25,866 nucleotides of DNA from a virus, in IMG/VR virus record IMGVR_UViG_3300045135_003244, positions 1 to 25,866 of that record. One strand, 5' to 3'. The first letter of the stretch is position 1. Every line of letters begins with the position of its first letter. Of the stretch, positions 424-24,861 are shown piece after piece. Below the pieces are notes generated by a model. It was not told where the DNA came from, made no database searches, and worked only from the letters and a program-made list of their open reading frames with translations. Position numbers and translations under genes: made by a program.

Positions 424-921
424 TCACTTGGAAGTCCTGACATCTTGGCCTTCTCTTGCGAGTGCCGAACCCTCGCGTTCGCCTAACTCGAGCGCGTCAG
501 CTTCAGTGTGCAGCCATGCTGAAAGTCGGTCGGTGGTCAAGGTAACCTGTTCGGGCTTTCGCAAGGCGCACTCCCATATTGTCGCCACACGCCAGCCCCC
601 CGAAAGAAGCGCGCCTCGAACGGCGCTGTCCCGCACGATATTCGCGTCGAACTTTGCCTGCCAGAATTCCAAGCGCGTCGCGGGAATGGAAGCGTAGCGG
701 CATCCCTCATGCCGATGCCAGAAGCAACCATGCACAAAGACAACGGCGCGGTACCTGGGAAGGACTAGGTCGGGTCGTCCGTGGACTTTCTTCGAATGAA
801 GCCGGTAGCGAAACCCGCGTGCGTGGAGAGTCCGTCGAAGCGCCAGCTCAGGCTTCGTGTTCTTTCCTTTGATCCCTGCCATCATGCGGGAGCGAGTCTC
901 GCCATCGACGATGTCCACCAT
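424..921 (-). CDS. vsr: Very-short-patch repair endonuclease Vsr
   Basis: This 165-aa protein has the usual length for Vsr, which nicks 5' of the T in T:G mismatches left by deamination of 5-methylcytosine. The signature is complete: MAGIKGKNTKPE near residue 14, GRPDLVLP with catalytic Asp51, and HGCFWHRHEGC with His64, Cys66, His69 and His71 falling at the same numbers as in the E. coli enzyme, then Cys74 and a later WEC cysteine for the structural zinc. The start is ATG at 921, because AAGGAGG (926-932) lies 4 nt upstream. An upstream in-frame start at 966 would add 15 residues but lacks such a site. It is divergent from the C5-methyltransferase, its usual functional partner, which makes the repair role very likely. 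Confidence 0.93.
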   Translation of the reverse strand: MVDIVDGETRSRMMAGIKGKNTKPELALRRTLHARGFRYRLHSKKVHGRPDLVLPRYRAVVFVHGCFWHRHEGCRYASIPATRLEFWQAKFDANIVRDSAVRGALLSGGWRVATIWECALRKPEQVTLTTDRLSAWLHTEADALELGEREGSALAREGQDVRTSK

Positions 922-967
922 CTCTCCTCCTTGCCATGTCTGCGAAAAGCTGGAAAGAGAAGACACC

Positions 968-973
968 GGAGGA
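968..973 (+). promoter_or_regulatory. Ribosome-binding site fixing a TTG start for the methyltransferase
   Basis: GGAGGA sits 5 nt before an in-frame TTG at 979. The nearby ATG at 974 is out of frame. In-frame starts further upstream would overlap vsr and encode no methylase motif. The 57 bp between the two divergent starts (922-978) must hold both promoters. Confidence 0.75.
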
Positions 974-978
974 ATGAA

Positions 979-2493
979 TTGTCAAAACCCGTTCAAATCG
1001 TTGATCTGTTTTCAGGCCCGGGAGGGCTCGGGGAAGGATTTTCTTCTTGCAAGAGGAATGATGGGTCGCGCGCCTATGAAATAGCTGTCTCGATAGAAAA
1101 GGATCTTGCTGCGCACAAGACGCTGAGGCTTCGAGCATTCTTGCGGCAATTCGATGAACTCCCGCCCGAATACTACTCATGGATTGCCGGGAAGCACGAA
1201 TGCCCGGATTGGAAAGAACTGTACCCTCCGCAATGGAAAGCGGCCGAAAACGAGGCGCTTTGTGCAGAGCTCGGGAAACCTGAAACGACAGCAATTCTCT
1301 CTGAGAGGATTTCTTCAACGAAGCGGTTGGCGGGCGACCTCACTCTCCTGATCGGGGGTCCCCCTTGTCAGGCTTACTCCCTTGCCGGGAGGTCAAGAAA
1401 CGCCGGTATTCGGGATTACAGACCGAAAGACGATGACCGGCACTTCCTTTATCGCGAATATTGCCGAGTGTTGAACGAATTGAGCCCTGCGGCATTCGTA
1501 ATGGAGAACGTCAAGGGCATGCTTTCTTCGTCTGTCGAGGGGCTGGCGATCTTTGAGCAGGTCGTTTCCGACCTTGAGCATGCAGGCCCGGGTTACAAGC
1601 TTATTGCCCTGTCAGCTGACCTCCAGCCTGACGCAAATCCTGAACCGAGAGACTTCGTCATCCGGGCCGAAGATCACGGAGTTCCACAGGCACGACACAG
1701 GGTCATTATCGTCGGCATCAGGTCTGATGTCACCAGTGATAGCATCACGAAACTCCAAATGCGAAACGCGGTGGTTCCAGTCAGAGACGTGCTGACAGGC
1801 TTGCCTCGACTAAGAAGCGGCTTGAGCAGACGTGATGACGAGCATGCGTGGTATGATGCGGTGGTCGACGCTATGGAGTCTGTCGGCAAGATCGTCCGGG
1901 ATTATCCGGGCGAGAACTTTGGCGTCTTTCTGGATGAGCTGGATCGGGTCGAGGAACGGCTCCTAGCGACTTCACAGATGGGACGCGTGAGCAACGCAAG
2001 AAAACCTCTTTCCAAGAAGCTGCAGCCGGGACTCGCTGCGTTTCTGGACGATCCGAAGCTCGTCGGCGTCTCGGGTCACGAAACCCGAGGCCATATGCCA
2101 TCCGATCTTGCGCGCTACCTCTATGCTGCCTGTTTCGCGAAGGCCGAGGGTCTTAGTCCACGCGCGCACCAGTTTCCGGACATGCTAGCGCCAAACCACA
2201 AGAACTGGAATACGGGCAAATTCAACGACAGATTCCGCGTTCAGATTGGTACAGCTCCGGCCTCCACTGTAACGAGCCACATCTCGAAGGACGGGCACTA
2301 CTTCATTCACCCGGATCCGACCCAGTGCCGCAGCCTGACCGTACGCGAGGCCGCGAGACTGCAGACTTTCCCTGACAATTACCACTTCATGGGCAATCGC
2401 ACCGAGCAATTCGTGCAGGTTGGCAATGCAGTGCCTCCATTTCTCGCGAGGCAGATCGCAGACGCCCTGTTGCCTGTATTCGAAGGCCTTTAA
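979..2493 (+). CDS. DNA (cytosine-5)-methyltransferase
   Basis: This 504-aa protein transfers methyl from S-adenosylmethionine to C5 of cytosine. Motif I DLFSGPGG is at residues 9-16. The catalytic loop GGPPCQAYS carries Cys130. Motif VI ENV is at 176-178, motif VIII QARHRVIIVG follows, and motif X QVGNAVPP begins at 480. The roughly 200-residue stretch between motifs VIII and IX is the target-recognition region, so it is longer than a minimal enzyme. The start is TTG at 979, with GGAGGA 5 nt upstream. The pairing with vsr suggests a Dcm-like target whose deamination needs T:G repair, but the recognition sequence cannot be read from here. It may be the modification arm of the adjoining Z1/AIPR system. 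The weak TTG start may keep expression low. Confidence 0.93.
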   Translation: MSKPVQIVDLFSGPGGLGEGFSSCKRNDGSRAYEIAVSIEKDLAAHKTLRLRAFLRQFDELPPEYYSWIAGKHECPDWKELYPPQWKAAENEALCAELGKPETTAILSERISSTKRLAGDLTLLIGGPPCQAYSLAGRSRNAGIRDYRPKDDDRHFLYREYCRVLNELSPAAFVMENVKGMLSSSVEGLAIFEQVVSDLEHAGPGYKLIALSADLQPDANPEPRDFVIRAEDHGVPQARHRVIIVGIRSDVTSDSITKLQMRNAVVPVRDVLTGLPRLRSGLSRRDDEHAWYDAVVDAMESVGKIVRDYPGENFGVFLDELDRVEERLLATSQMGRVSNARKPLSKKLQPGLAAFLDDPKLVGVSGHETRGHMPSDLARYLYAACFAKAEGLSPRAHQFPDMLAPNHKNWNTGKFNDRFRVQIGTAPASTVTSHISKDGHYFIHPDPTQCRSLTVREAARLQTFPDNYHFMGNRTEQFVQVGNAVPPFLARQIADALLPVFEGL

Positions 2494-2496
2494 GCT

Positions 2497-4581
2497 TCAG
2501 CTTGTCAATTCAAGGCTCGCATGTGAGAAGCCTTCATCTTGGAGCTTCTTGAGCGCGCTCGTGGCAATGGCGCACTGCTTGTCCGAGGGCATCTTGTTCG
2601 GGATCGCAGCGCAGGTCTCCAGAATGCCGTTTTCTCGCGGAGATAAAAGCCCCCGTTCCCGTGCCCAATTGCGAGCTTCTGCCCAGAACGCAGCGCCGAG
2701 CCTATGCACTTCGAGCTCTGCCTCGACGCTGGTCTCGACAGCCTTTTCTGCACGGGCTTCTCTCGCCCGTTCATTGGCCAAGTCCGGCGAGACCAGAGCG
2801 CGGTCGAATTCCCCCGGGTAGCTCAACTCGCGATCTTCCAGTCCCTTCCAGCAGGCCTGCTTCTTGGCCCACTCGCTGAAGTTCCGCACCCCCTCGGGCG
2901 GGTGCGTGATGACGTCCTGTGCTTCTGCGGCAGAAACCAACAAGGCTGCCTTCAGGTCGGGCGAGACGTCTTGGTATCTCCAAACGGCGTCGAGATCGAC
3001 CACCATGTCCCGTCCTTCTGCGTCATGTACGAGCTTGGCGATCGCATAGGTTACGATGTTGGCGCGATAACCGCCTTCGTACCACTCTGCGCCTGAGACA
3101 AGCTTTTCGGTGGTCCGGAAGATGATGGCCTTTGCGATCATGCGCCTGAACCAGAGCTCATCGAACGCCGCGCCTTCAGTGCCCCACCGCTTGCCGATTT
3201 GCTTGGCGAATTCCGCAAAGTTCTTCTGCGCGCCAAGGCTCACGATATGTGGCAGGCAGGCCCAAGTGTTCTCGAACTTCGCAAGGTCGGTTTTCGTGAG
3301 GAACTGAGAACGCGGGAACTCGGCATCGAATTTCTTTCGCTCCGCAATGGTCCTTCGACCACGTTCGTCGGCATATTGCCCCCTCGCACGCTCGTAGAAC
3401 CATTTGGTGTCCCGATACCCGTCTTCTCCCCGCGCCAAGACCTTGCGCGACAGCTCTTCCGTACGGATGTGGAAAGGATGGTTGGCGAAGAAGTCCGCCG
3501 CGTTCACCTTGTTCTGGCTGTTCGCGTATTCTGAGATGCGCGGTACCACTTGTTCGGATTTTTCCCGCGGCACGATTGTCAGCTTCATCTGTACGTGGAC
3601 AAGTTCTAGCTGTTCAGAGAATGCCTTGCGCGCAGCGTGAAGTGAAGCAGTCGTTTGGCCACCATTCACGATCTGAAGATTGTCCGCCCTTACCAACTGG
3701 AGGCCGAGATCGGTCTGCTCCACCTCAATCCCGTCGGCCGTCGCACTGAGACCGTTGTTGTAGGAAAAGAACATATGCGGCTCATCGCGGATGGTGTTGC
3801 GAATGCCCTGATTTACCTTACCGCGTGCCTGCAGAAAGCTTCTTACGTTGGCCTCAAGCAGACGCGGTCCCCACTTGTCGTAGATGGCCGCCAGCTGTTT
3901 TCCGGGAATGACTGCAAGGTAGCTTTCGAGTGCGCTGTCGCTTCCGGATGCCGCAAGAAGAGGAACGCCCCCGCCAAAATCCCTGTCGAAATCGATGATT
4001 AGGTTCGCCCGTGCCTGCCCCTGTTCGATGTATTGCTTGAGACGCTTCAGGTCCCAGACGCTGAGGGTAACCGGTCTGCCATCAAGATCCTTAACGTTCG
4101 CCGCATCGGCACGGGCGCGAAAGTCTGCGTTGGTCACGATGATGAGCTTGACCTTCTCGACGTCTTTCCACGTCGTGGCAATTAGGTCTGCTACGCCGAA
4201 CCCCGCACTGGTCTCTTCCAATTGCTCCCGGAAATCGACCTTGAGACTTGATACAACGAACCTGTAGACACGCTGTAGAAGGCGCTGGATCTGATCCTTG
4301 TTTTGAACACGCACCTCGTCGGAAAGCTCGAAGTCGCACAAAACGACGCTTAGAACGCCGTCACCATCCCTTGGATCCCCACCATAGCCGTCGATCCGCA
4401 TAGGATTTCTGGCACCGCCGCCCTCGAAATACGCCCTGTTGGCGCCATCCAATTCCCCGGCCTCGGTTAGCAGTTCGCCCACCTTCTCGAAAAACGCTTC
4501 GACTGTGACGAGACCGAGAACGTCAGCATCGCCCTGAATGTCCGCGATGAGTTCATGATGGAATTCTTCCAGATCACTCAT
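2497..4581 (-). CDS. AIPR-family (abortive phage infection) protein
   Basis: This 694-aa protein carries the AIPR hallmark blocks: LLEANVRSFL near residue 240, FFSYNNGLSATADGI near 272, and QIVNGGQTTASL near 303. AIPR proteins are tied to abortive phage infection, and their biochemical activity is poorly defined. The N-terminal part has IDGYGGD and VVLCDF, which resembles a degenerate Mrr/PD-(D/E)XK fold seen in some relatives; that is only a resemblance. The start is ATG at 4581. A TTG two codons upstream is in frame, but GAGGAGG lies better for the ATG. The gene overlaps the upstream nuclease gene by 8 bp and is the last gene of the operon. Its stop is 3 bp from the stop of the convergent methyltransferase, leaving no room for separate terminators. 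Confidence 0.88.
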   Translation of the reverse strand: MSDLEEFHHELIADIQGDADVLGLVTVEAFFEKVGELLTEAGELDGANRAYFEGGGARNPMRIDGYGGDPRDGDGVLSVVLCDFELSDEVRVQNKDQIQRLLQRVYRFVVSSLKVDFREQLEETSAGFGVADLIATTWKDVEKVKLIIVTNADFRARADAANVKDLDGRPVTLSVWDLKRLKQYIEQGQARANLIIDFDRDFGGGVPLLAASGSDSALESYLAVIPGKQLAAIYDKWGPRLLEANVRSFLQARGKVNQGIRNTIRDEPHMFFSYNNGLSATADGIEVEQTDLGLQLVRADNLQIVNGGQTTASLHAARKAFSEQLELVHVQMKLTIVPREKSEQVVPRISEYANSQNKVNAADFFANHPFHIRTEELSRKVLARGEDGYRDTKWFYERARGQYADERGRRTIAERKKFDAEFPRSQFLTKTDLAKFENTWACLPHIVSLGAQKNFAEFAKQIGKRWGTEGAAFDELWFRRMIAKAIIFRTTEKLVSGAEWYEGGYRANIVTYAIAKLVHDAEGRDMVVDLDAVWRYQDVSPDLKAALLVSAAEAQDVITHPPEGVRNFSEWAKKQACWKGLEDRELSYPGEFDRALVSPDLANERAREARAEKAVETSVEAELEVHRLGAAFWAEARNWARERGLLSPRENGILETCAAIPNKMPSDKQCAIATSALKKLQDEGFSHASLELTS

Positions 4582-5536
4582 GGTCAAGCCCTCCTCGGAT
4601 GACGTCGATCAGATCACCTTCCAGTTTGAACGGTTCGCAGGCATCGAGAGCGATCGCGTACCGGACATTCTCCACGCCCGGCGCAAGAGGTGTGGAAATC
4701 CGAGGAAAACCTTCTGTCACCTCGTAGTCCTTCGCAGCGCCAAGAAGCCATCGCCGCTCGTCGTAATCGTTCTCGGAATCATATCCTGTCGAATAGAGCG
4801 TCTCTTCCCACGCATCGAAGGCCGCGCCGTCATCTTCGAACATCTCGGACGTCATTCGCACGTGATCATGCAGGCTCTGACCTTCCGGCAGGACGGCCGA
4901 CGCCACATTGACCACACGAAGGCACAGGCGGCTCCCTTCGACATCCGCAAGCTGGTCTTCGGACGAAATGGCTACGAACGGCTTTGCAGCCACCCGCCTT
5001 GCCTTCACCTCGACGCAGCTTCCGATGAGCTCGAAGTCCTTCGCCGAGCCGGTCGGGCCGGTCCAGGCCTCGATTGCAGTCTCTGGGCCGAATGCGGACA
5101 CAAGGTCCCGAACGAAGGCCAACTCGCCGACAAGCCCCCGCTGCTCTTCAACGGACAACCCATTTGTCTTTCCACCACGCAGAAGGTGATACCATCGCCG
5201 TGTGCGTTGCAGCGCTCTGACGAGCGCTTCGTCGCGATCCGCACCTGCCTCTCCGGCCTCAACGACATCCCGGCAAAGGGTTTCGAATATCTCAACCTGA
5301 CTTCGTTCCTTGAGGCCGAGAACGAATGCCGATCCACCTGAAACAGGGCGGAACGAAGCGACAAGGTTTTTCAACTTCGGTAGTCGCGGCAATGGTTGCG
5401 GCAGGCCGGGCAGCCTCAACATCAGGCCTGGCATGCCCGCTTCCAGTACCACCCAGAAGAAATCGAAGCGGCCCGCGACATCGACCCGCTTTGCGTCGTC
5501 CGGGTCGAGCCTGTCCCAAGGATCACGAGGCTTCAA
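4574..5536 (-). CDS. PD-(D/E)XK motif protein, DUF4420 type
   Basis: A 320-aa protein of the DUF4420 type with a readable nuclease core: GELAF with Glu138, then AKDFEL with Asp167 and VEVKA with Glu176 and Lys178. That is the PD-(D/E)XK arrangement, so DNA cleavage is the expected activity. It begins MKPRDPWDRLDP, the DPW beginning being typical of the family as I recall it. I chose TTG at 5536, which has AGGAGG (5543-5548) exactly 6 nt upstream. An ATG at 5554 is in frame but would place the ribosome site inside the gene. It overlaps the Z1 gene by 14 bp and the AIPR gene by 8 bp, so translation is probably coupled. Likely the nuclease effector of the operon (inference). Confidence 0.85.
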   Translation of the reverse strand: MKPRDPWDRLDPDDAKRVDVAGRFDFFWVVLEAGMPGLMLRLPGLPQPLPRLPKLKNLVASFRPVSGGSAFVLGLKERSQVEIFETLCRDVVEAGEAGADRDEALVRALQRTRRWYHLLRGGKTNGLSVEEQRGLVGELAFVRDLVSAFGPETAIEAWTGPTGSAKDFELIGSCVEVKARRVAAKPFVAISSEDQLADVEGSRLCLRVVNVASAVLPEGQSLHDHVRMTSEMFEDDGAAFDAWEETLYSTGYDSENDYDERRWLLGAAKDYEVTEGFPRISTPLAPGVENVRYAIALDACEPFKLEGDLIDVIRGGLDHE

Positions 5537-8273
5537 GATCAGCCTCCTGATCATCGTCCTCGTCGTCTTCCCCGAAGAGCTCTCTGAATTTCACGGTGTT
5601 TACAATGAACTCTTCGCCTTCATCCTCATATTTGGACTCGGGCAGGCTGATTCCCCAAGCAACTACGGGATCCGACGGAATCAACGTAGCTTCATTCTTG
5701 GTTTCTTCTCCTTTCGGTGCTCTGCCCTTCACGAAATACAGAATGAAAAGGCCTAGATCCCTTTCTTTCCGATAGATCGAGTCCGGATAGTTCACTCGCT
5801 CAACTTCCGATCTTCCCGCTTTCGCTCGATACGTTGCTTCCGCAGCTTGAGCCTTCGACGCGTCGACCCCAGCCTTTTCAATACCACGAGACGCAACTCT
5901 CATTTTCTTCCCACTGAAAGACATAAAATCATGCTTCAAGTCATGAAGGTCAACAGAACGGTTCGCCGGAACAACGCTGGTTCCCAATGTGTCGTCCGCT
6001 GTTCCCTTTTCTAGACTTGGGATAAGAACGTCCCATGTCTGCAACTGGTCGCTTTTTCTTGCACGGATATAGCTACGGATAGGACGGGGGTCTGTCGTCA
6101 CACTGCGATCTTCATTGCGCCAGCCCGCGAGAAATTCATCTACGTAGCCCACCGGAACGCCTCTTATGAGTCTGCCCCATTGTGTTTTCTCTTCATGAAA
6201 CGTCCCAGCGTCAATTTTCGAGATCAGCGATTTCGCGAGTTCAAGATTGGCGGCGAGATCACTAGGTTTGATACTGACTTTGGCGGTTTCTACGAACTTA
6301 TTGGATAGGCCAATCCGCATAGTGACCTTCTGGCCGGACCCCAACTTATTTCGCGCAGTCACCAGCAAAGAGGCGGGATGGCTCCGCACCGCAAGACCAA
6401 ACATTCGCGGAGTCGCCTTGGCCTTTTCCATGGTGCGCAACTCATCATGCAGTTCATCGGCAGCATTGGCGATGAATGCGTACCAATCTATTGCCTCACT
6501 TGGCATCCATATGCGGCAAAGGTCTTCGTAACCGCCCCGATAGCCGAACCAGCGCCCCATCTGCATGAGGGTGTCGTACATCATGGTGTTGCGTAGGAAC
6601 CAAGTGACCGTGAGGCCCTCCAGCGTAAGACCGCGTGACAGAGAGAACCCGCCAACAGCAACGACGGTCTGTCCACGTTCACCGGAATTCGAATAGTCCA
6701 GATCGTTGGCCCGGCTATTCACTTCGACGATTTTGGCCGATGCAATTGCATCAAGCAGCGCAAACTGAACCTCAGACCAATCGGGTTGCGTTTCGGAGTA
6801 TTCTTCTAGCCAGACGCTATGGAGCGCCGCGATTTCTGGATCTCTCAATGCTGCAGTGCCCCGGCTGGCATTTATCCGAACAGAATTCTGGATCCGCTCG
6901 AGTGTTTCATGCAGGCGGTTTCGCAAGCGCCCCTGAACGGCGGTGAAACGGCTCGCGTTTACAAGCATAGAGCAATGTGCGGCCTTTTGCCCACGCAAGT
7001 TCCTGATGGTTCTCGCCAGCAGGAAAGTTCGCAACGCCCGCGTCAGTGACGACGGCAGCGCATCTAGTTCGTGATCGATCTTGTGTTTGATTGGCAGTAA
7101 ATCTTCGTTGTCGGTGATATACCGAAGCCACGTCGGATCGCCCTCCTCAGGCAGCCCATCGACGAAAATCTTGGTCGGGCCAAAGTAGTTCGATGGCGCA
7201 TCTAGACCGATGATGAAATCCCTCGGGAAGAGGTCTTCATTGTACATCTCGTCATCTTGATCTGGGTCGATGAAGATGTTGGCGAACGGGGTTGCAGTGT
7301 AGCCTACATAGCAGCTCCTGTGGAACATATTCAGCAGATCACGAATCTGGCCATTAATTGTAGTGACAAGTTTCTTGCCATACTTCGTGTTGATTGATGC
7401 GTTGTCAGCTTCATCGTCAATCAACAGCATCGGCTGATCGATCATGGCTTTTTCGTCGCGTACACTGGTGTCGCGAAGCCACTCGAGCAAGTTCTCGAGA
7501 GTTCGGTGATTTTTTTTGATAACAAAAACTACTGGCTCAACATATGCACCAAATCCGCTACTGTCCTCTGATGCTCGCGCCTTGTTGAAGTCGAATATGC
7601 GGGTAGTTAGAGGTACCGGTCTGCGACTGGGGTCAAATTCACCCGCACCCAAGACATACTTTCTACCAGCAATCTCCCGACCCCAATTTTTACCGCTATC
7701 ATAGCCCAAAAGGCCTTCGTCTACACGTTCTTGAGTTTGATTCCGAAGGTTGTTGTGAATTCCTGCAATGACGATGATAAGCCTATAACCTGCATCTGCA
7801 GCTTTGCAGATCAGGCCCGTATAGTTGGCGGTCTTTCCACTTTGGACATGACCCACCACCATACCACGGCGATCCCATGGCACCTGCTTGTCAGGGTTTC
7901 CCAAGCGACTGAGAATCGTATCAGTGACCTTATCTGTCGAAATCACAACGTCCTTGGGAAGGCCGTTCTGCAGAAGCAGTTTCTGGTAACGGTTCCAGTA
8001 GAACGGTTCGATAGTTGGTTTGGCATCATCAAGCCAAGGTTCGAAGTCTTCGCTGTCAACGACTGCGCCAAGGCCAGCTTTGATGCCCTCCTTGGCCTCG
8101 ATTTCTTTGGCAATCAGCTCAATTTCGTCATCAGTCACCCCTGGAGGATTTCTGCGCGCATGTACCATGTTTAGTTCGGAGATATAAGCGCGCAATTCTT
8201 CCCCAGTCATTTTCGGGCTGTCAAAAAGATCCATTTCGACAGTATTCTTAAGTTTTTCGAACGCATTTCTCAT
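5523..8273 (-). CDS. Z1 domain-containing ATPase (SF2 helicase-like)
   Basis: This 916-aa protein has helicase-type motifs in order: Walker A GHVQSGKT at 141-148, Walker B LLIDDEAD ending at residue 290, and the motif III-like GYTATPFAN at 324-332. The Z1 block follows with GGFSLSRGLTLEGL and MGRWFGYRGGY. Z1 proteins are found with MutL-like ATPases in restriction-type and defence operons and probably move along or remodel DNA using ATP. The ATG at 8273 overlaps the upstream ATPase stop as ATGA, and GAGG lies 7 nt upstream. The length is in the usual range and all motifs are intact, so the gene looks functional. Its base composition is lower in G+C than the genes right of 14 kb. Confidence 0.92.
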   Translation of the reverse strand: MRNAFEKLKNTVEMDLFDSPKMTGEELRAYISELNMVHARRNPPGVTDDEIELIAKEIEAKEGIKAGLGAVVDSEDFEPWLDDAKPTIEPFYWNRYQKLLLQNGLPKDVVISTDKVTDTILSRLGNPDKQVPWDRRGMVVGHVQSGKTANYTGLICKAADAGYRLIIVIAGIHNNLRNQTQERVDEGLLGYDSGKNWGREIAGRKYVLGAGEFDPSRRPVPLTTRIFDFNKARASEDSSGFGAYVEPVVFVIKKNHRTLENLLEWLRDTSVRDEKAMIDQPMLLIDDEADNASINTKYGKKLVTTINGQIRDLLNMFHRSCYVGYTATPFANIFIDPDQDDEMYNEDLFPRDFIIGLDAPSNYFGPTKIFVDGLPEEGDPTWLRYITDNEDLLPIKHKIDHELDALPSSLTRALRTFLLARTIRNLRGQKAAHCSMLVNASRFTAVQGRLRNRLHETLERIQNSVRINASRGTAALRDPEIAALHSVWLEEYSETQPDWSEVQFALLDAIASAKIVEVNSRANDLDYSNSGERGQTVVAVGGFSLSRGLTLEGLTVTWFLRNTMMYDTLMQMGRWFGYRGGYEDLCRIWMPSEAIDWYAFIANAADELHDELRTMEKAKATPRMFGLAVRSHPASLLVTARNKLGSGQKVTMRIGLSNKFVETAKVSIKPSDLAANLELAKSLISKIDAGTFHEEKTQWGRLIRGVPVGYVDEFLAGWRNEDRSVTTDPRPIRSYIRARKSDQLQTWDVLIPSLEKGTADDTLGTSVVPANRSVDLHDLKHDFMSFSGKKMRVASRGIEKAGVDASKAQAAEATYRAKAGRSEVERVNYPDSIYRKERDLGLFILYFVKGRAPKGEETKNEATLIPSDPVVAWGISLPESKYEDEGEEFIVNTVKFRELFGEDDEDDDQEADLEAS
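5543..5548 (-). promoter_or_regulatory. Ribosome-binding site supporting a TTG start of the DUF4420 gene
   Basis: AGGAGG on the minus strand lies inside the 3' end of the Z1 gene, 6 nt before TTG at 5536. It is the second gene in this block whose best site points to TTG rather than ATG. Confidence 0.65.
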
Positions 8274-9775
8274 TGCTCTACCTCGAGGAGAAATCTTTGT
8301 AAAATAGGCTCAACGCTCTCCCACTGCGAACGCAAGAATGCATAATTTCTCATTGTATCAGTTAGGGTGTCAGTAGACATGCCATTTTCCAATAGGTTGA
8401 CTGCAAGAGAATAGATCAGCTCTTCTAAATCAGCGGCTGATGTTTCGTCAGCTGTCACTGCCTCGGCGTTTCCGACGAGTTCCGCGTGTAGTGTTTCAAT
8501 TGGCAAACCTGACCCGACAATGCGCAAGCATCGCTCGAAGCCCTCTCGCAGTTCTTCGGGCAGTCGCTCAGCGTACGTCCTGAATACCGGATGATCTTGA
8601 TTGGGACGAAAGACGATCTGTCCATCCTTGTGCACCCGATTCCAAATTGGGAAACGGGTTTCATCCACTAGCTTCTGACCCCTACTTCGGTAAGTGCGTT
8701 TGGAAGTCCCAACGAACCTCTCAACCACCTTTCTCAGGCGCTCACGCACCACCGGCGGCAACTGCGCCGATGCCTTTTTGACGTCAATCTTCCACTCCGC
8801 ATCCATCGTGTTCGGGATATCGACGGCTATCCGACAGAGCTTTGTGAGTTCGGTTTGGCGTGCGAGACCCAGCCATCCCCCTGCGATAATGAGACGTTTC
8901 TCGCGATAGACATAGAGACCCTGCGACTTCAAATGACCCTCCGGACCGCCAATTTCCTCCCACTCTTCGCGGCTTATCCGCTTGTGATGGGGAAGCGTAT
9001 GGCACCTGATGAGAACGTCACCCTGACGCAGGCGAAGTATTTCCTCCGGGTCCTTTTGCGTTGCAGCATTCGACGTTGCCATGGGATCGATGGGTTTCAG
9101 GGGGCGGCCGTTCAGTGACAGTTTCAGACGCGGCTTTGAACCTTCCAGAAAGCGATGAAACACCAATCGCAGATGATGTTCTGCGCGGGACAACTCCGAA
9201 TTCATGTGCTCGGCCCGCTTCGCACGGTCATGCGCATAACCACCGCTCAAGCGATCGAGTTTTTCCCAGACGACAACCGTTCCGGTCTCCGGAAGTAGGT
9301 CATCTCCCGTAACGAGTTCGGGATTGTCGATGAGTTCCAGGCTCCAGTTGTTGCGTTTCGCCACGCGATCTAGGTCCCAGCGCGCGCAAGATGTTCGGCC
9401 CTCTTGCCGCGTCACAACAGTCAAACTTCGGCACTGTGAGAAGCTGGCACTCTTCAGGCCGAGACCGAACCGGCCGAGGTCTTCTGTGTCGCGCTCGTCA
9501 GTCGGGTTCTTCGAGCCAAGACGCATAGCCTCAATCAGTTCGGCCTCCGTCATGCCTGAACCGTCATCTGCCAGCGCTATCCACGGCTCGTCAGCAACAG
9601 TGTCTGCGATCAATTCTACTGACTGCGCGCCGGCGGTAATGGCGTTATCGATGATGTCGGCGAGAGCTGTCTCGAGGCTGTAACCAAAGTCACGATGGCC
9701 CTCGATGAGAGAAGCAGCGTATGGCGTCGCATCGACTTCTCGTGTTTTGGGTTTTGGATTCGAAGCATCTCGCAT
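8270..9775 (-). CDS. GHKL/MutL-like ATP-binding protein
   Basis: This 501-aa protein is the first gene of the minus-strand defence operon. The GHKL ATP-binding (Bergerat) fold is clear: the N box ALADIIDNAI (Asp40 to Asn44), G1 box DDGSGM at 70-75, and G2 box GRFGLGLKSAS at 101-111. These resemble MutL, HSP90 and type II topoisomerase ATPases. Such proteins act as ATP-gated clamps. Here it may sense or hold DNA for the Z1 and nuclease partners (inference). No catalytic nuclease motif was seen in the C-terminal half, so it is not a MutL endonuclease in the ordinary sense. The ATG at 9775 has only GAGG very close upstream, so initiation may be weak. It ends in an ATGA overlap with the Z1 gene. 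Confidence 0.88.
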   Translation of the reverse strand: MRDASNPKPKTREVDATPYAASLIEGHRDFGYSLETALADIIDNAITAGAQSVELIADTVADEPWIALADDGSGMTEAELIEAMRLGSKNPTDERDTEDLGRFGLGLKSASFSQCRSLTVVTRQEGRTSCARWDLDRVAKRNNWSLELIDNPELVTGDDLLPETGTVVVWEKLDRLSGGYAHDRAKRAEHMNSELSRAEHHLRLVFHRFLEGSKPRLKLSLNGRPLKPIDPMATSNAATQKDPEEILRLRQGDVLIRCHTLPHHKRISREEWEEIGGPEGHLKSQGLYVYREKRLIIAGGWLGLARQTELTKLCRIAVDIPNTMDAEWKIDVKKASAQLPPVVRERLRKVVERFVGTSKRTYRSRGQKLVDETRFPIWNRVHKDGQIVFRPNQDHPVFRTYAERLPEELREGFERCLRIVGSGLPIETLHAELVGNAEAVTADETSAADLEELIYSLAVNLLENGMSTDTLTDTMRNYAFLRSQWESVEPILQRFLLEVEQ

Positions 9776-9870: not shown

Positions 9871-10260
9871 TCAGGTCTGCATGAAGAGCGCCACTTGCAT
9901 CTCCCACTCGGTTGGAAATGGATTCAGAAGCCGTGCGAGCGTCACCTCCGGCCCCTGCTTCCCGTCCAGGATCGCCTCGACGATGTCCGGCGCGAGCAGC
10001 GTCAGGCGCAGGACACGGGTCATGTAGGAGGGCGCGATGCCCTCGCGCTCGGCCAGTTCGGCGATGGTGGCGAACTCCCCGGATTCGAGCATCCGCTTCC
10101 ACCGGAACGCACGGGCCATCGCCTTAACGAGCGCGTTGTCGGTCCGGCGCGGTTGCTTGACGCAGTCCGGCAGCTGCATCTCCTTCCGCCCACCACGCTT
10201 AACGATGCGGAATGGCACATTCAGTGTCACGGTGTCCGGGATCGGCGTCCTGCTGGTCAT
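9871..10260 (-). CDS. Small ParB/KorB-like helix-turn-helix protein of the recombinase cassette
   Basis: A 129-aa basic protein with a predicted helix-turn-helix at about residues 63-88 (ATIAELAEREGIAPSYMTRV), like the central DNA-binding domain of ParB-type proteins but without a ParB nuclease domain. Its ATG overlaps the recombinase stop as ATGA, so it is made with the recombinase. Genes of this kind follow DUF2924-associated serine recombinases in many alphaproteobacterial elements (recalled). A role as recombination directionality factor or as autoregulator of the cassette is plausible but unproven. I do not know an experimentally assigned function. Confidence 0.8.
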   Translation of the reverse strand: MTSRTPIPDTVTLNVPFRIVKRGGRKEMQLPDCVKQPRRTDNALVKAMARAFRWKRMLESGEFATIAELAEREGIAPSYMTRVLRLTLLAPDIVEAILDGKQGPEVTLARLLNPFPTEWEMQVALFMQT

Positions 10261-11567
10261 GCTGCCGCCTCAATGCCGCCTGCAAGCATCTCGCGCGCTA
10301 AGCCACTGAGGCCGTCGACGCGCAGCCGGACATTGAGCCCGTCCATGCGGATGTCCACGCGTTCAACCAGCAGCGCCACGATGCGCGCCTGTTTGGCAGG
10401 GAACAGTTCATCCCACAGCGGATCGAACTGCTGCAGGACCGTGCGGGCGTCGGTCTCAATGATGTCGCCGTCAAGCGCTCGGGCCGCCTTCCACGTGCCC
10501 GCCACGATTTCGGGCTGGCGGAACACGGCGCGAAGCTGGTCGATGACCGCCGCCTCGATCTCGCCTGCAGGCACGCGGCCGACGGGGCACGATCCGGCGC
10601 CATGCTTCAGCACGGTCTGGCTGACGTAGTAGCGGTAGAGCCTGTTGCCCTTGCGGGTGTGGGTCGGTGAGAAGGCCGCGCCATCGGGTCCGAAGAGCAG
10701 CCCTTTGAGCAGCGCGGGTGTATCGGCGCGCGTGCGGGCGGCGCGCTTGCGGGGGCTCTCCTTCAGGATAGCGTGGACCTTGTCCCAAACACCCATGTCG
10801 ATGATGGCATCATGCTCGCCGGGATAGCTGTCGCCCTTGTGCACGGCCTCGCCGATATAGGCGCGGTTGCTCAGCATGCGGTAGAGGTACTTCTTGTCGA
10901 TCCGGTTGCCGCGCGGGGTGCGGATGCCGCGTTTGGCAACCTCTCGCGCCAGTTCCGTGGCCGAACCGATCTCGAGGAAGCGCGCGAAGATCCAGCGAAC
11001 ATGCTCGGCGCGCTCGTCGTCGACGACCAACTTCCGGTTTTCGACGCGATACCCATAGGGAGGCACCCCGCCCATCCACATGCCCTTTTTACGGCTTGCG
11101 GCGACCTTGTCGCGGATGCGCTCGGCTGTGACTTCACGCTCGAACTGAGCGAAGCTGAGCAGGATATTCAGCGTCAGCCTGCCCATCGATGTGGTCGTGT
11201 TGAACGACTGCGTCACCGACACGAAGGTCACGTCATTGCGGTCGAACACCTCGACCAGCTTGGCAAAATCGGCCAGCGAACGGCTGAGGCGGTCGATCTT
11301 GTAGACAATGACCACGTCGACCAGCCCGTCCTCAATATCTGCCATCAGCTGCTGCAGGCCCGGGCGGTCTAGCGTGCCGCCAGAAATGCCACCATCGTTA
11401 TACTGATCGCGGACGAGCACCCAGCCCTCGGAGCGCTGGCTTGCGATATAGGCCTCGCAGGCCTCTCGTTGCGCATGCAGGCTGTTGAACTCCTGCTCCA
11501 GCCCTTCCTCGGAGGATTTGCGCGTGTAGATCGCGCAGCGGAGCTTCCGGACAATCGGCTTGGTCAT
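10257..11567 (-). CDS. Large serine recombinase (resolvase/invertase family)
   Basis: A 436-aa site-specific recombinase. The N-terminal catalytic domain begins AIYTRKSSEEGLEQEFNSL with nucleophile Ser18. It continues with the YKIDRLSRSLADF block, then SFAQFEREVTAERI. The central recombinase domain contains GMWMGGVPPYGY and the RAYIGEAVHKG region. The zinc-ribbon position lacks the usual CxxC: GLLFGPDGAAFSPTHTRK has GPDG where cysteines normally stand. I recall this as typical of DUF2924-linked members. The length is at the short end for large serine recombinases but complete. It lies between the DUF2924 and HTH genes with ATGA overlaps on both sides. It is the only integrase-like gene in the window and probably mobilises the element. 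Confidence 0.93.
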   Translation of the reverse strand: MTKPIVRKLRCAIYTRKSSEEGLEQEFNSLHAQREACEAYIASQRSEGWVLVRDQYNDGGISGGTLDRPGLQQLMADIEDGLVDVVIVYKIDRLSRSLADFAKLVEVFDRNDVTFVSVTQSFNTTTSMGRLTLNILLSFAQFEREVTAERIRDKVAASRKKGMWMGGVPPYGYRVENRKLVVDDERAEHVRWIFARFLEIGSATELAREVAKRGIRTPRGNRIDKKYLYRMLSNRAYIGEAVHKGDSYPGEHDAIIDMGVWDKVHAILKESPRKRAARTRADTPALLKGLLFGPDGAAFSPTHTRKGNRLYRYYVSQTVLKHGAGSCPVGRVPAGEIEAAVIDQLRAVFRQPEIVAGTWKAARALDGDIIETDARTVLQQFDPLWDELFPAKQARIVALLVERVDIRMDGLNVRLRVDGLSGLAREMLAGGIEAAA

Positions 11568-21277: not shown

Positions 21278-24220
21278 ATGACCGCAGCTGTAATCGACTT
21301 CAACGACGTCGCCCCCGCCCATGCCCAGCCTGTGCGCTATGATCTCGACCTGATCGTTCAGCGTCTCCGTGAAACGGCAGAGAACTGGGTGCCGCGGTTG
21401 TTTCCCAACGGCAAGCGTGTCGGCGACGAGTGGCGGCTGGCCAATATCCGCGGGGACGCCCCGCGCAACACGGGCTCTTGTGTCATTGCCCTGCGCGGTC
21501 CGCATGCCGGCGACTGGATCGACTTCGACGGAAATGAAGGTGGCGGGCCCATCAGCACGCTGGAGGCCGGAACGGGGCTCATGGGGCGCGCTCTGATTGT
21601 CGAGGCTGCAGACATGACCGCTGTGACCGCGGGGGCACCAGCGCGTCAGGCATCTGTGGTCACGGCTACGTCGAAGCGGGACGCGGGGCAGGAGATCGCG
21701 CATATCCTGTCTGGTGCTGTGCCGATTCAGGACACGCCCGCTGCCGCGTATCTCGCGGGCCGTGCCTTGGACGTGCCCGATGCAACCGACTTGCTGTTTC
21801 ATGAAGATCTGACGCACTGGGAAACCAAGACCGGCTATGCTGCGATGTTGGGGCAGGTGCGCGATCGCAGCGGAGAGGTCATCGGGCTGCACCGCACCTA
21901 CCTTGTTGAGGATGTAAACGAGGTTCGTAAGGCGCCAGTTGCCAAACCCAAGATGATGCTGGGCCGCATTGCAGGTGGCGCCGTCAGGTTGGCATCGATC
22001 GGTAAAGATGGTCGCCTCGCACTCTGCGAAGGCATCGAAACCGGCCTTGCGGTGGTGACGGCCTGCCCGGACCTGCCGGTCTGGGCGACCTTGTCCACCT
22101 CAGGGCTGGAGCAGGTCGACTTGCCGCCTGCTGCCCAGCGTGTGCTGATCCTGGCCGATCATGATGCCTCCGGCGCCGGTCTGCGGGCCGCCGAGGCCGC
22201 CGCCCGCCGGCTGCGCGCCCAAGGCCGAGATGTGGCGATCGCGATGCCGCCCGAGGAAGGCGAGGATTTCAACGATATGTTGCTAGGGGCGGGATCATCA
22301 TCCATTGCCCAGTTGATCTCGGCCACTGAACAGGAGGTCGATGCCGACGCTGTACTGCAAATCGGCCAGCACCGGCCGCTGAATTACCAAGGCAGCGGCA
22401 ATGACATCCCCGTCCTGCGCGCTGATGAGGGCGATCTGGGCCGAGCTGTGGCGCAGGTCTGGAGCGTGGTCATGGCCTCGAACCGCACGCCCTGGGTGTT
22501 CCGTTTTGCAGGCCAACCGACCTGGGTTGTGCCGGACGATGAAGGCCGCCCTGTCGCTACGATCCTGAATGAAGAGCGTCTGCGGCACATGCTGGCGCGA
22601 CTGGCCCGCTGGGTGCGCGAAAACGCCAAGGGAGATTTGATGCCTGCGCCGCCGCCGGTGGCCACGGTCAAATCGGTTCTCGCTACGCCTGACCCTGCGC
22701 TGCCCGTGCTCACGGGCATCGTCAACACGCCCGTCTTCGGACGCAGCGGCACGCTAATCACGGCCCCGGGATACCATCCTGATGCGCGGCTGCTCTATGT
22801 GCCCGCACCGGGCTTCACCGTGCCGGATATTCCAAAGCGCCCCACAGAAGCGGAGATTGCTGCGGCCCGCGAGTTGATCTGCGACGACCTCTTCGGTGAC
22901 TTCCCTTTCACCGGTGAGGCGGAACGCGCCCATGTTGTGGCATTGCTGCTGCTTGGCTTCCTGCGCGGCATGATCGATGGGCCCACGCCGCTGCATTTGA
23001 TCGAAAAGCCCACGCCGGGCACGGGCGCTACGCTCATGGTGGACGCCGTGGCCACGATCCTGACCGGCACCGGGGCCAGCGTCATGACGGAGGGGCGTGA
23101 CGACGAGGAATGGCGCAAGCGCGTCACCGCAAAGCTACGCCAGATCCCCTCGATCATTCTGATCGACAACCTGCGGGCCAAGCTCGACAGCTCTGCCGTC
23201 GCCGCAGCGCTTACCGCACCTTTCTGGGAGGACCGCGTGCTCGGGGCGTCGGAGATGACGCGGCTGCCGATCCGCTGCCTCTGGATTGCCACGGGCAACA
23301 ACCCCGAGTTCTCAAACGAGATGGCCCGCCGCCTCGTGCGCATCCGTCTCGATGCCAATGTGGAGCAGCCGTGGCAGCGCAAGGGGTTTCGCCATCCTGA
23401 CCTCATGGTTTGGATCCGCGCCAACCGCGCGCGCCTCGTCGCCGCCTGCCTGACGCTCTGCCAGGCCTGGATTGCCGCGGGCAAACCGCGCGGCAGCAAG
23501 ACTATCGGCTCCTATGAAAACTGGGCGCAGGTCATTGGGGGCGTATTGGAAGTCGCCCGTATTCCTGGCTTCCTCGACAACCTCGAGGACATGATGGCGG
23601 CCTCCGATAGTGAGGGTGCGGGCTGGAGTAACTTCATTTCAGCTTGGTGGGATCGGTTTGGAACTGGGTCTGTGCTGACCTCGGATTTGTTCGACGTCGC
23701 AGCGTTTTGTGATCCTGCTCCACCGATCCATGGCGCTACCGAGCGCGCGCAGAAAATCGCTTTTGGGAAAGCGATCTCTCGCATGAGGGACCGAGTGTTT
23801 CGAATTGGCTCGGTCCATGTGCGAGTACGAAAGGCTGGTATCGAGCACAAGGCTGCCCGCTGGAAACTCGAGCTTTTTGAACGCAAGCCGCATCAAGGCA
23901 TGATCGTTCAACCTAGGGCTGGGGAATGTCAGGGGGCTGAGGGGAATGTTGAAACGCAACATTCCCCTGGGCAAACCATTGATAACATTAGCCAAAGGGA
24001 ATGTGGGGAATGTGGGGAATGTTTTTCCGCCCTCTCACACACGCGCATGCGCGCACGCGCGCACGATAGGGATGGCCCCGGAAAACATTCCCCACATACC
24101 CAACATTCCCAAAGTATCGAAAAATCAAATGGTTACGAAGGGGAATGTTTGGGGGAATGTCCAAACTCACCTTCCCAACATTCCCCAAAGCCCGATTGGC
24201 TGAAGGAACTCGACCCATGA
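21278..24220 (+). CDS. Toprim primase fused to a P-loop ATPase/helicase-like domain
   Basis: A 980-aa replication protein. The N-terminal region (1-110) precedes a Toprim domain: LALCEGIETG (Glu251) and ILADHDASGAG (Asp294, Asp296), typical of DnaG/P4-type primases. Residues about 540-700 form an ATPase-like core: EKPTPGTGATLM stands where Walker A should be, SIILIDN (Asp630) is Walker B, and IATGNNPEFSNEMARRLVRI looks like sensor 1 plus arginine finger. The Walker A lysine is replaced by Ala584, so nucleotide binding may be altered. GAAGGGGG precedes ATG 21278. The last 100 residues are low-complexity with repeated GEC and HSP tripeptides, produced by the iteron-like DNA array. The gene very likely primes, and possibly initiates, element replication. 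Confidence 0.88.
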   Translation: MTAAVIDFNDVAPAHAQPVRYDLDLIVQRLRETAENWVPRLFPNGKRVGDEWRLANIRGDAPRNTGSCVIALRGPHAGDWIDFDGNEGGGPISTLEAGTGLMGRALIVEAADMTAVTAGAPARQASVVTATSKRDAGQEIAHILSGAVPIQDTPAAAYLAGRALDVPDATDLLFHEDLTHWETKTGYAAMLGQVRDRSGEVIGLHRTYLVEDVNEVRKAPVAKPKMMLGRIAGGAVRLASIGKDGRLALCEGIETGLAVVTACPDLPVWATLSTSGLEQVDLPPAAQRVLILADHDASGAGLRAAEAAARRLRAQGRDVAIAMPPEEGEDFNDMLLGAGSSSIAQLISATEQEVDADAVLQIGQHRPLNYQGSGNDIPVLRADEGDLGRAVAQVWSVVMASNRTPWVFRFAGQPTWVVPDDEGRPVATILNEERLRHMLARLARWVRENAKGDLMPAPPPVATVKSVLATPDPALPVLTGIVNTPVFGRSGTLITAPGYHPDARLLYVPAPGFTVPDIPKRPTEAEIAAARELICDDLFGDFPFTGEAERAHVVALLLLGFLRGMIDGPTPLHLIEKPTPGTGATLMVDAVATILTGTGASVMTEGRDDEEWRKRVTAKLRQIPSIILIDNLRAKLDSSAVAAALTAPFWEDRVLGASEMTRLPIRCLWIATGNNPEFSNEMARRLVRIRLDANVEQPWQRKGFRHPDLMVWIRANRARLVAACLTLCQAWIAAGKPRGSKTIGSYENWAQVIGGVLEVARIPGFLDNLEDMMAASDSEGAGWSNFISAWWDRFGTGSVLTSDLFDVAAFCDPAPPIHGATERAQKIAFGKAISRMRDRVFRIGSVHVRVRKAGIEHKAARWKLELFERKPHQGMIVQPRAGECQGAEGNVETQHSPGQTIDNISQRECGECGECFSALSHTRMRARAHDRDGPGKHSPHTQHSQSIEKSNGYEGECLGECPNSPSQHSPKPDWLKELDP
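23941..23967. repeat. Perfect inverted pair of array repeats
   Basis: GGGGAATGTT and AACATTCCCC are exact reverse complements around a 7-nt GAAACGC loop. This is the longest palindrome of the array and could be a hairpin or a dimer-binding site. Confidence 0.8.
24036..24065. other. 30-bp perfect alternating pyrimidine-purine tract (Z-DNA-prone)
   Basis: CA and CG dinucleotide steps, with a single TG, alternate without a break over 30 bases in the centre of the repeat array. Such tracts favour Z-DNA under negative supercoiling. The base pairs are mostly G:C, so this is not an AT-rich melting region. Confidence 0.75.
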
Positions 24221-24248
24221 GCCCTCTGACGATCGCACCGCTTCATCC

Positions 24249-24290
24249 GACGACGGCGGCCGGTACCGCCAAGCATCAACCGCCGTCGTC
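24249..24290 (+). repeat. Perfect 11-bp hairpin between primase and RuvC-like genes
   Basis: GACGACGGCGG (24249-24259) and CCGCCGTCGTC (24280-24290) are perfect inverted copies with a 20-nt loop that contains the palindrome CGGTACCG. It lies in the 107-bp stretch after the primase stop. That argues that this stretch is regulatory rather than the N-terminus of the RuvC-like protein. Confidence 0.65.
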
Positions 24291-24327
24291 TTCCACCCGA
24301 GCAGGCCACCAGAACAGGAGACCACCC

Positions 24328-24861
24328 ATGGCTGATACGACTTTGTCCAGCGCCGCAGTTGGCGCAACCCCGAAAATGCCGCCGTCCGAGCGCGGTCGCA
24401 CAATCCTTGCCCTCGACCTCGGCACCACAACCGGCTGGGCCATCCGAGGCTTCGATGGCCTCATCACCAGCGGCACCGTCAGCTTCAAGCCCGGCCGCTA
24501 CGATGGCGGTGGTATGCGTTATCTGCGCTTCACCAACTGGCTCACGGAGATTGACCGACTCTCTGGTCCGATTGCCGCGATCTGGTTCGAGGAAGTCCGC
24601 CGCCACGCGGGCACAGACGCGGCCCATGTCTACGGCGGTCTGATGGCGACGCTGACCGCTTGGGCCGAGTTGCGGGGAATTCCCTATCAGGGCGTCCCAG
24701 TTGGCACGATCAAGCGCCACGCCACCGGCAAGGGTAATGCACCGAAGCAGGCGATGATAGCGGCTGCACGGCAGCGTGGGTTCAGCCCCACAGATGACAA
24801 CGAGGCGGATGCCATCGCGATTCTGCTCTGGGCGATTGAGACGCAGGGAGGGTTGGTCTGA
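24328..24861 (+). CDS. RuvC-like Holliday junction resolvase
   Basis: A 177-aa RNase H-fold protein. ILALDLGTTTGWA holds the first catalytic Asp30, IWFEEVRRH the glutamate (88 or 89), and DDNEADAIAILLWA the final acidic pair with Asp161. This is the acidic signature of phage RuvC-type resolvases, which cut four-way junctions formed during recombination-dependent replication. I chose ATG 24328, with AGGAG 7 nt upstream. ATG 24217 overlaps the primase stop as ATGA and would add 37 low-complexity residues spanning an 11-bp hairpin, so it is less likely. It completes the recombination set with Sak4, SSB, nuclease and helicase. Confidence 0.85.
   Translation: MADTTLSSAAVGATPKMPPSERGRTILALDLGTTTGWAIRGFDGLITSGTVSFKPGRYDGGGMRYLRFTNWLTEIDRLSGPIAAIWFEEVRRHAGTDAAHVYGGLMATLTAWAELRGIPYQGVPVGTIKRHATGKGNAPKQAMIAAARQRGFSPTDDNEADAIAILLWAIETQGGLV

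Follow-up and report, generated by a model that had tools for sequence, protein, structure and literature searches.

The locus and its primase-ATPase

The window, as we call the whole 25,866-nt stretch of viral DNA analyzed here, is a fragment that carries a tRNA-Ser at its left end (33-122), followed by a probable Mza-type defence island (424-9775; matches to MzaB, C, D and E) whose cargo is Vsr and a cytosine methyltransferase, and by a large serine recombinase gene recognized by eye (10257-11567); the tRNA-Ser and the serine recombinase would fit the boundary of an integrated prophage or island. Farther along lies the gene that concerns us, which encodes a primase, an ATPase and a putative DNA-binding domain and bears an array of short repeats in its 3′ tail. 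The next gene (24217-24861) starts in an ATGA overlap; its product has a RuvC-like LALDLGTTTGWAI motif by eye, and no Pfam match was found for the residues encoded from 24328. The features of the protein-coding part are as follows:

21278-24220, + strand: putative initiator gene, 980 aa; DUF7146-Toprim primase, D5-like AAA+ ATPase, C-terminal winged helix and unstructured, array-bearing tail
22016-22297, + strand: Toprim catalytic domain, residues 247-340 (Pfam and fold matches)
22835-23482, + strand: D5/SF3-like AAA+ domain, approximately residues 520-735
23624-23875, + strand: C-terminal winged helix, approximately residues 783-866, predicted iteron-binding domain (AlphaFold elements)
23741-23779, + strand: recognition helix, residues 822-834; I827 and K831 track letters 6 and 7 of the repeated word
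23813-23878, + strand: wing hairpin, residues 846-867; tip H857/K858 and A859 track letters 2 and 4

Pfam assigns residues 138-238 to DUF7146 and residues 247-340 to Toprim_3, and the N-terminal part matches the folds of the DnaG and T7 primases. An earlier model of the full-length protein was of low quality over the ATPase, and a sequence search of the PDB with a profile gave nothing useful; a model of residues 372-871 built from a more diverse alignment (pLDDT 85, pTM 0.77) has fold matches to poxvirus D5/E5, the NrS-1 CTR and the SaPI5 PriRep1 (Pri-Rep), including the dsDNA complex 7pds. The modeled wing tip, 857-858, lies between strands 846-856 and 859-867. The winged helix is the quickest-evolving part of the protein core, and residues 869-980, which make up the array-bearing tail, are predicted to be disordered.

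A Toprim primase, an ATPase and a C-terminal winged helix on one polypeptide are what would be expected of a P4-type initiator; an intact Walker A motif, GxxxxGK[ST], would be expected as well and is absent. The P-loop reads KPTPGTGAT (residues 577-584, 23006-23029), with Ala584 in place of the Walker A lysine, and all aligned members of the subfamily share this alanine, with a conserved lysine, Lys577, seven residues upstream. Since homologs with a canonical GSGK (those of pWTY27, the Streptomyces plasmid NBC_01335 and the Chloroflexota relative L288) lack the upstream lysine, the alignment suggests that the P-loop lysine has been relocated, Lys577 standing in for the Walker A lysine. With the canonical residue missing and Lys577 in its stead, the helicase activity and mechanism of this subfamily are uncertain.

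The iteron array and its relatives

A first-pass annotation, made from the letters alone, had reported eleven copies of a short word, seven direct and four inverted, with three in tandem, at the end of this gene, and an exact-match count over the whole window bears it out: GGGGAATGT occurs nine times and AGGGAATGT and TGGGAATGT once each, all within 23921-24186, and all eleven copies contain the 8-mer GGGAATGT without mismatch. Seven copies lie on the + strand (23921, 23941, 23996, 24005, 24014, 24140 and 24152), the run at 23996-24022 being a tandem of three with a 9-bp period, and four on the − strand (23959, 24085, 24103 and 24178); two more carry a single mismatch (ACATACCC at 24094 and ACCTTCCC at 24169), and outside the array the sole site in the window within one mismatch of the word is at 4665. 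The “perfect 10-bp palindrome” reported alongside was not quite so: the sequence contains a perfect inverted repeat with 12-nt arms and a 5-nt loop (23940-23951/23957-23968) and, in the spacer, a 12-bp GC palindrome, CGCGCATGCGCG. Written with forward (F) and reverse (R) sites, the array comprises:

23921-23967: outer left iterons, F 23921, F 23941, R 23959
23968-23995: left core flank, relatively AT-rich (family AT profile); inferred candidate melting region
23996-24022, + strand: left triplet of the core, three iterons in forward orientation, 9-bp period
24023-24084: central spacer, 62 bp
24085-24111, − strand: right triplet of the core, three iterons in reverse orientation, of which the central one (24094) has one mismatch
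24112-24139: right core flank, relatively AT-rich (family AT profile); inferred candidate melting region
24140-24186: outer right iterons, F 24140, F 24152, one-mismatch R 24169, R 24178

When the tail was resampled 2000 times with synonymous codons, no 8-mer exceeded seven copies and GGGAATGT never exceeded five, and 2000 shuffles of its codon order gave no more than four copies, against the eleven observed. Because the copies lie on both strands and in all three phases relative to the primase gene, the constraint must act on the DNA, and an explanation of the array by a repeated peptide is ruled out. GC skew across the fragment has no clear switch and is uninformative on an origin, and no second iteron cluster was found in the 25.9-kb window, so that the bipartite origin of P4, with ori1 and a distant crr, has no match within this fragment.

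To place the array in its family we drew on viral contigs and species genomes, which supplied 160 loci; 154 of these, the window included, were usable. The first-pass annotation had named homologous elements with intact primases and no repeat cluster at an equivalent place as grounds for refutation; in 152 of the 154 loci at least five copies are present there, one 8-mer recurring 5-15 times within 440 nt after residue 866, as compared with a maximum of three copies of any one 8-mer in control stretches of the same genes. The word varies among relatives in about 25 versions, among them GTGAACCT, GTGAGCCT, GGGAACCT, GGGAACGT, GGGGACCT, GTGAATGT, GGGAGGAT and GGGGGTCT, which with few exceptions have the form GKGRRNNT, and within any locus one word is common to all copies, which thus change in concert. 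The layout, F F R, FFF (9-bp period), spacer, RRR, F F R(R), is kept in 134 loci with a core spacer of mostly 56, 59 or 62 bp, and differences in spacer length are almost always multiples of three. In 126 of 132 relatives, as in the window, the array is wholly within the open primase frame; in L170 and L288 all of it lies 3′ of the stop codon. Beyond the core triplets the segments are comparatively rich in AT, the family profile reaching an AT content of ~0.57 at −72 to −61 from the center. The spacer itself contains a 30-nt alternating purine-pyrimidine tract (24036-24065) that is prone to form Z-DNA and is kept in most relatives, in which the longest such run in the spacer has a median of 28, versus 6 in shuffled spacers.

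Among relatives below 40% identity (30-40%), about ten, including pWTY27, have 7-16 word copies just 3′ of the gene's stop, and others have no detectable array. Likewise, no cluster was found within ~4 kb in lytic Caulobacter and Roseobacter phages that have the protein (RpAliso, RcXuper, MAL1, phiCbK and C1).

Covariation and cassette exchange

The variety of words allowed a covariation scan of 117 primases (effective number 36) over ~800 columns, in which the best column for letters 2, 4, 6 and 7 was always within the winged helix: H857/K858 for letter 2, A859 for letter 4, I827 for letter 6 and K831/A828 for letter 7. As a phylogenetic control, co-change was scored on a tree built from residues 5-780 only. 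Of 18 changes in letter 2, 16 fall on branches on which K858 changes (p 9e-16), and the pairs letter 4/A859, letter 6/I827 and letter 7/K831 give p values of 3e-10, 8e-15 and 1e-13; the best column within residues 5-780 reaches only 2e-4 to 8e-3. Letter 5 is weakly assigned, being linked to 820-825 and 851 (R823/Q825/R851) with disagreement between the MI and co-change tests.

These associations can be put as simple rules: letter 2 is G with His857 and otherwise T; letter 4 is A when residue 859 is Ala and G when it is Thr, Ser or Val; letter 6 is C with Thr at 827 and T, G or A with Ile or Val; and letter 7 is G or A with Lys or Arg at 831 and otherwise C. Of the 117 training loci, 116, 112, 112 and 109 obey the rules for letters 2, 4, 6 and 7, respectively, as do 22, 21, 22 and 22 of 22 held-out primases, which came from a second scan and about nine of which, unlike the others, are near-identical to training members. 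The sole held-out miss, L231, combines a new residue, Leu859, with a new letter, T4 (GGGTACCT), a pairing found again in L288 (~50% identity; word GTGTACCT), which fits at all four letters. A partial Chloroflexota array at a contig end, L284, has the apparent word GTGAGTTT, read by eye, which fits at letters 2 and 4 and not at 7. When donors were limited to those below 95% core identity, eleven residues gave the complete word correctly for 109 of 139, as against 47 of 139 when the most similar core was used for prediction. In the absence of binding data, this covariation supports the winged helix of the primase itself as reader of the word, with the recognition helix and the wing setting its letters; the first-pass annotation had named the primase-ATPase or a partner as the reader, and the former is now to be preferred. 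A reading of the word as a DnaA box or a pac site was set aside on account of its covariation with the primase.

Pairs of elements with different words are 90-97% identical in DNA over most of the primase and in the following genes, and their identity falls to 56-77% over roughly −150 to +300, around where the winged helix ends; a control pair that shares its word has no such dip. As the dip spans both the DNA-binding domain and the array, reader and sites must have been exchanged together, and the comparison, though confined to sequence, suffices to show that the two are swapped as a ~0.5-kb cassette between otherwise 90-97% identical elements.

Substitution in the tail is 0.011 at iteron bases versus 0.096 elsewhere, the core standing at 0.065. 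Outside the iterons the tail changes faster than the core with little third-position bias, and in the absence of a third-position excess its protein sequence appears to be loosely constrained; we infer that selection in the middle of the tail acts on DNA. The reading frame is nevertheless kept open, and a W[LW] peptide, in many cases DWLKELDP, closes 126 of 137 tails; in the window it is represented by one further feature:

24191-24220, + strand: conserved C-terminal peptide PDWLKELDP and stop codon, which overlaps the next start (ATGA at 24217)

We infer that the tail is translated as a linker, probably either for coupling to the next gene through this ATGA or for the terminal peptide, which is possibly a short interaction motif. 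The consensus of the peptide is (P/D)WL(K/R)E(L/V); P4 alpha has GDWL near its C terminus, and the L170 protein ends in DWL.

A predicted origin and its known counterparts

We hold it very probable that 23921-24186 is a replication origin whose 8-bp iterons are bound by the winged helix of the element's own primase-ATPase and exchanged with it as a cassette, binding and origin activity being inferred. The array, its layout, the covariation and the cassette exchange are established by comparative analysis, and binding and replicon function are known from experiment only in homologs or analogs. We envisage that the two inverted triplets, each with a 9-bp period and lying ~60 bp apart, would form the origin core and load two facing initiator complexes (double-ring loading is inferred), the recognition helix (827, 831) reading letters 6 and 7 and the wing (857-859) letters 2 and 4. 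The outer F F R/F F R sites and the relatively AT-rich flanks would aid assembly and melting, the site of which is likewise an inference, and the Toprim domain would prime after melting. Cassette recombination would then change origin specificity, and incompatibility may be the selective force for such change. Counting against an origin are the GC-rich center of the spacer, where a classical unwinding element would be rich in AT, and the lack of a detectable array in some distant homologs.

The covariation would imply binding by the winged helix of the primase just as well if the array were an operator, that is, a primase-binding cluster that mainly represses or times expression of its own or the downstream gene, at the ATGA-coupled start of which (24217) it lies. 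We nevertheless regard an operator as unlikely, because the array sits at the far 3′ end of a long gene, no cluster like it lies near a promoter, and its layout agrees with P4 crr and with the footprinted, replicon-essential iteron of pWTY27. In that plasmid, the repAB genes and the iteron constitute a minimal replicon, and RepA was studied by EMSA and DNase I footprinting, with footprints at 405-447 and 462-509 (PMC3583192); in locus coordinates these are 4605-4647 and 4543-4590, and they cover the RR and FF core. The 3′-terminal position and the part of the footprinted array in a minimal replicon thus favor an origin over a self-regulating operator, both of which the first-pass annotation had entertained, with origin activity of the segment itself inferred.

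Alternatively, the inverted triplets could be recognized by DNA or RNA structure and not by their word, as proposed for pWTY27 IR2 and pRN1. The inverted arms, 29 nt long and 93% complementary, would permit this, and stem-loop proposals have been published (PMC3583192; PMC4234260), the pWTY27 authors having described no code (PMC3583192). A hairpin, however, predicts neither that outer sites in direct orientation change in step with the core nor that single letters track single residues of the recognition helix and wing, and it appears very unlikely to be what is recognized. It is scarcely credible that another protein of the element, such as the adjacent helicase or the next gene's product, is the reader and that the primase covaries by linkage only: the cassette is indeed linked to neighboring genes, which the covariation scan did not cover, but flanks that remain 90-97% identical between elements with different words imply that linked genes do not change with the word, and the signal coincides precisely with two predicted elements, the wing tip and the recognition helix. 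Spread of a repeat by slippage or gene conversion, or of a repeat peptide, with no binding function can be dismissed with hardly any reservation, since the latitude of a tail without third-position excess outside the iterons cannot account for copies on both strands and in three phases at conserved positions, for iteron bases almost frozen at 0.011 against 0.096, or for a word that predicts winged-helix residues.

If the array is an origin, the analysis predicts where replication starts in a family of alphaproteobacterial prophages that is large and has gone unstudied. We think it likely that these widespread phage initiators carry a readable code and that reader and sites form one swappable ~0.5-kb cassette, giving many origin-compatibility types within one phage family. 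The ~25 words are a natural data set for residue-by-residue reading of initiator-origin specificity, and the code could aid origin prediction wherever the primase-ATPase occurs; an origin, moreover, can persist in a stretch that is translated as a tail of almost unconstrained protein sequence. It is now testable how initiators, via cassette exchange, change their origin specificity and survive the transition, and whether words set incompatibility or superinfection exclusion among related prophages.

The closest known counterpart is the Streptomyces plasmid pWTY27, whose RepA is homologous to residues 372-871 (31% identity over 95%) and whose array, just 3′ of the RepA gene, reads FFR FF-64 bp-RR FRR. 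The two share a D5-like initiator and, at the gene's 3′ end, an array of an 8-bp word with an inverted tandem core; unlike the window, pWTY27 has an intergenic array, in non-coding DNA after the stop, a separate RepB primase and the canonical Walker A lysine. P4 alpha, too, is a single polypeptide with a Toprim primase, an ATPase and a winged helix at its C terminus, and crr lies directly 3′ of alpha, with a type I iteron, GGTGAACA, of the same GKGRRN type as the window's word; type I iterons beside the gene, as in P4, are thus matched here by position, word class and covariation, without binding data. P4 differs in its two separate iteron regions, its intergenic array, its Walker A lysine and its slight sequence similarity. 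SaPI Rep and SCC Cch2 bind, through a C-terminal domain, iterons directly downstream of their own genes (PMC7581432). SaPI Rep/Pri-Rep and SCC Cch2 resemble the window's protein as self-loading D5/SF3-type initiators, SaPI5 PriRep1 being a fold match, and differ in their iterons, which are not the same and are intergenic. We know of no comparable residue-to-base code in SaPI or SCC elements. Phage lambda carries origin iterons within its initiator gene O, but O is neither a primase nor an ATPase, and its iterons are 18 bp long and mid-gene, as opposed to an 8-bp word in a 3′ tail. In geminivirus Rep, residues covary with iterons among relatives, which has been used for finding specificity determinants; Rep, however, is a rolling-circle HUH endonuclease, and neither the protein nor its origin is related to those described here. 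In the open-access literature that we searched, the residue-to-letter code and the intragenic array are undescribed for this primase family. An iteron origin of the P4, SaPI and pWTY27 kind is known; the recognition code, the exchange of reader and sites as a cassette, and the overlap of the array with the end of the gene appear to be new.
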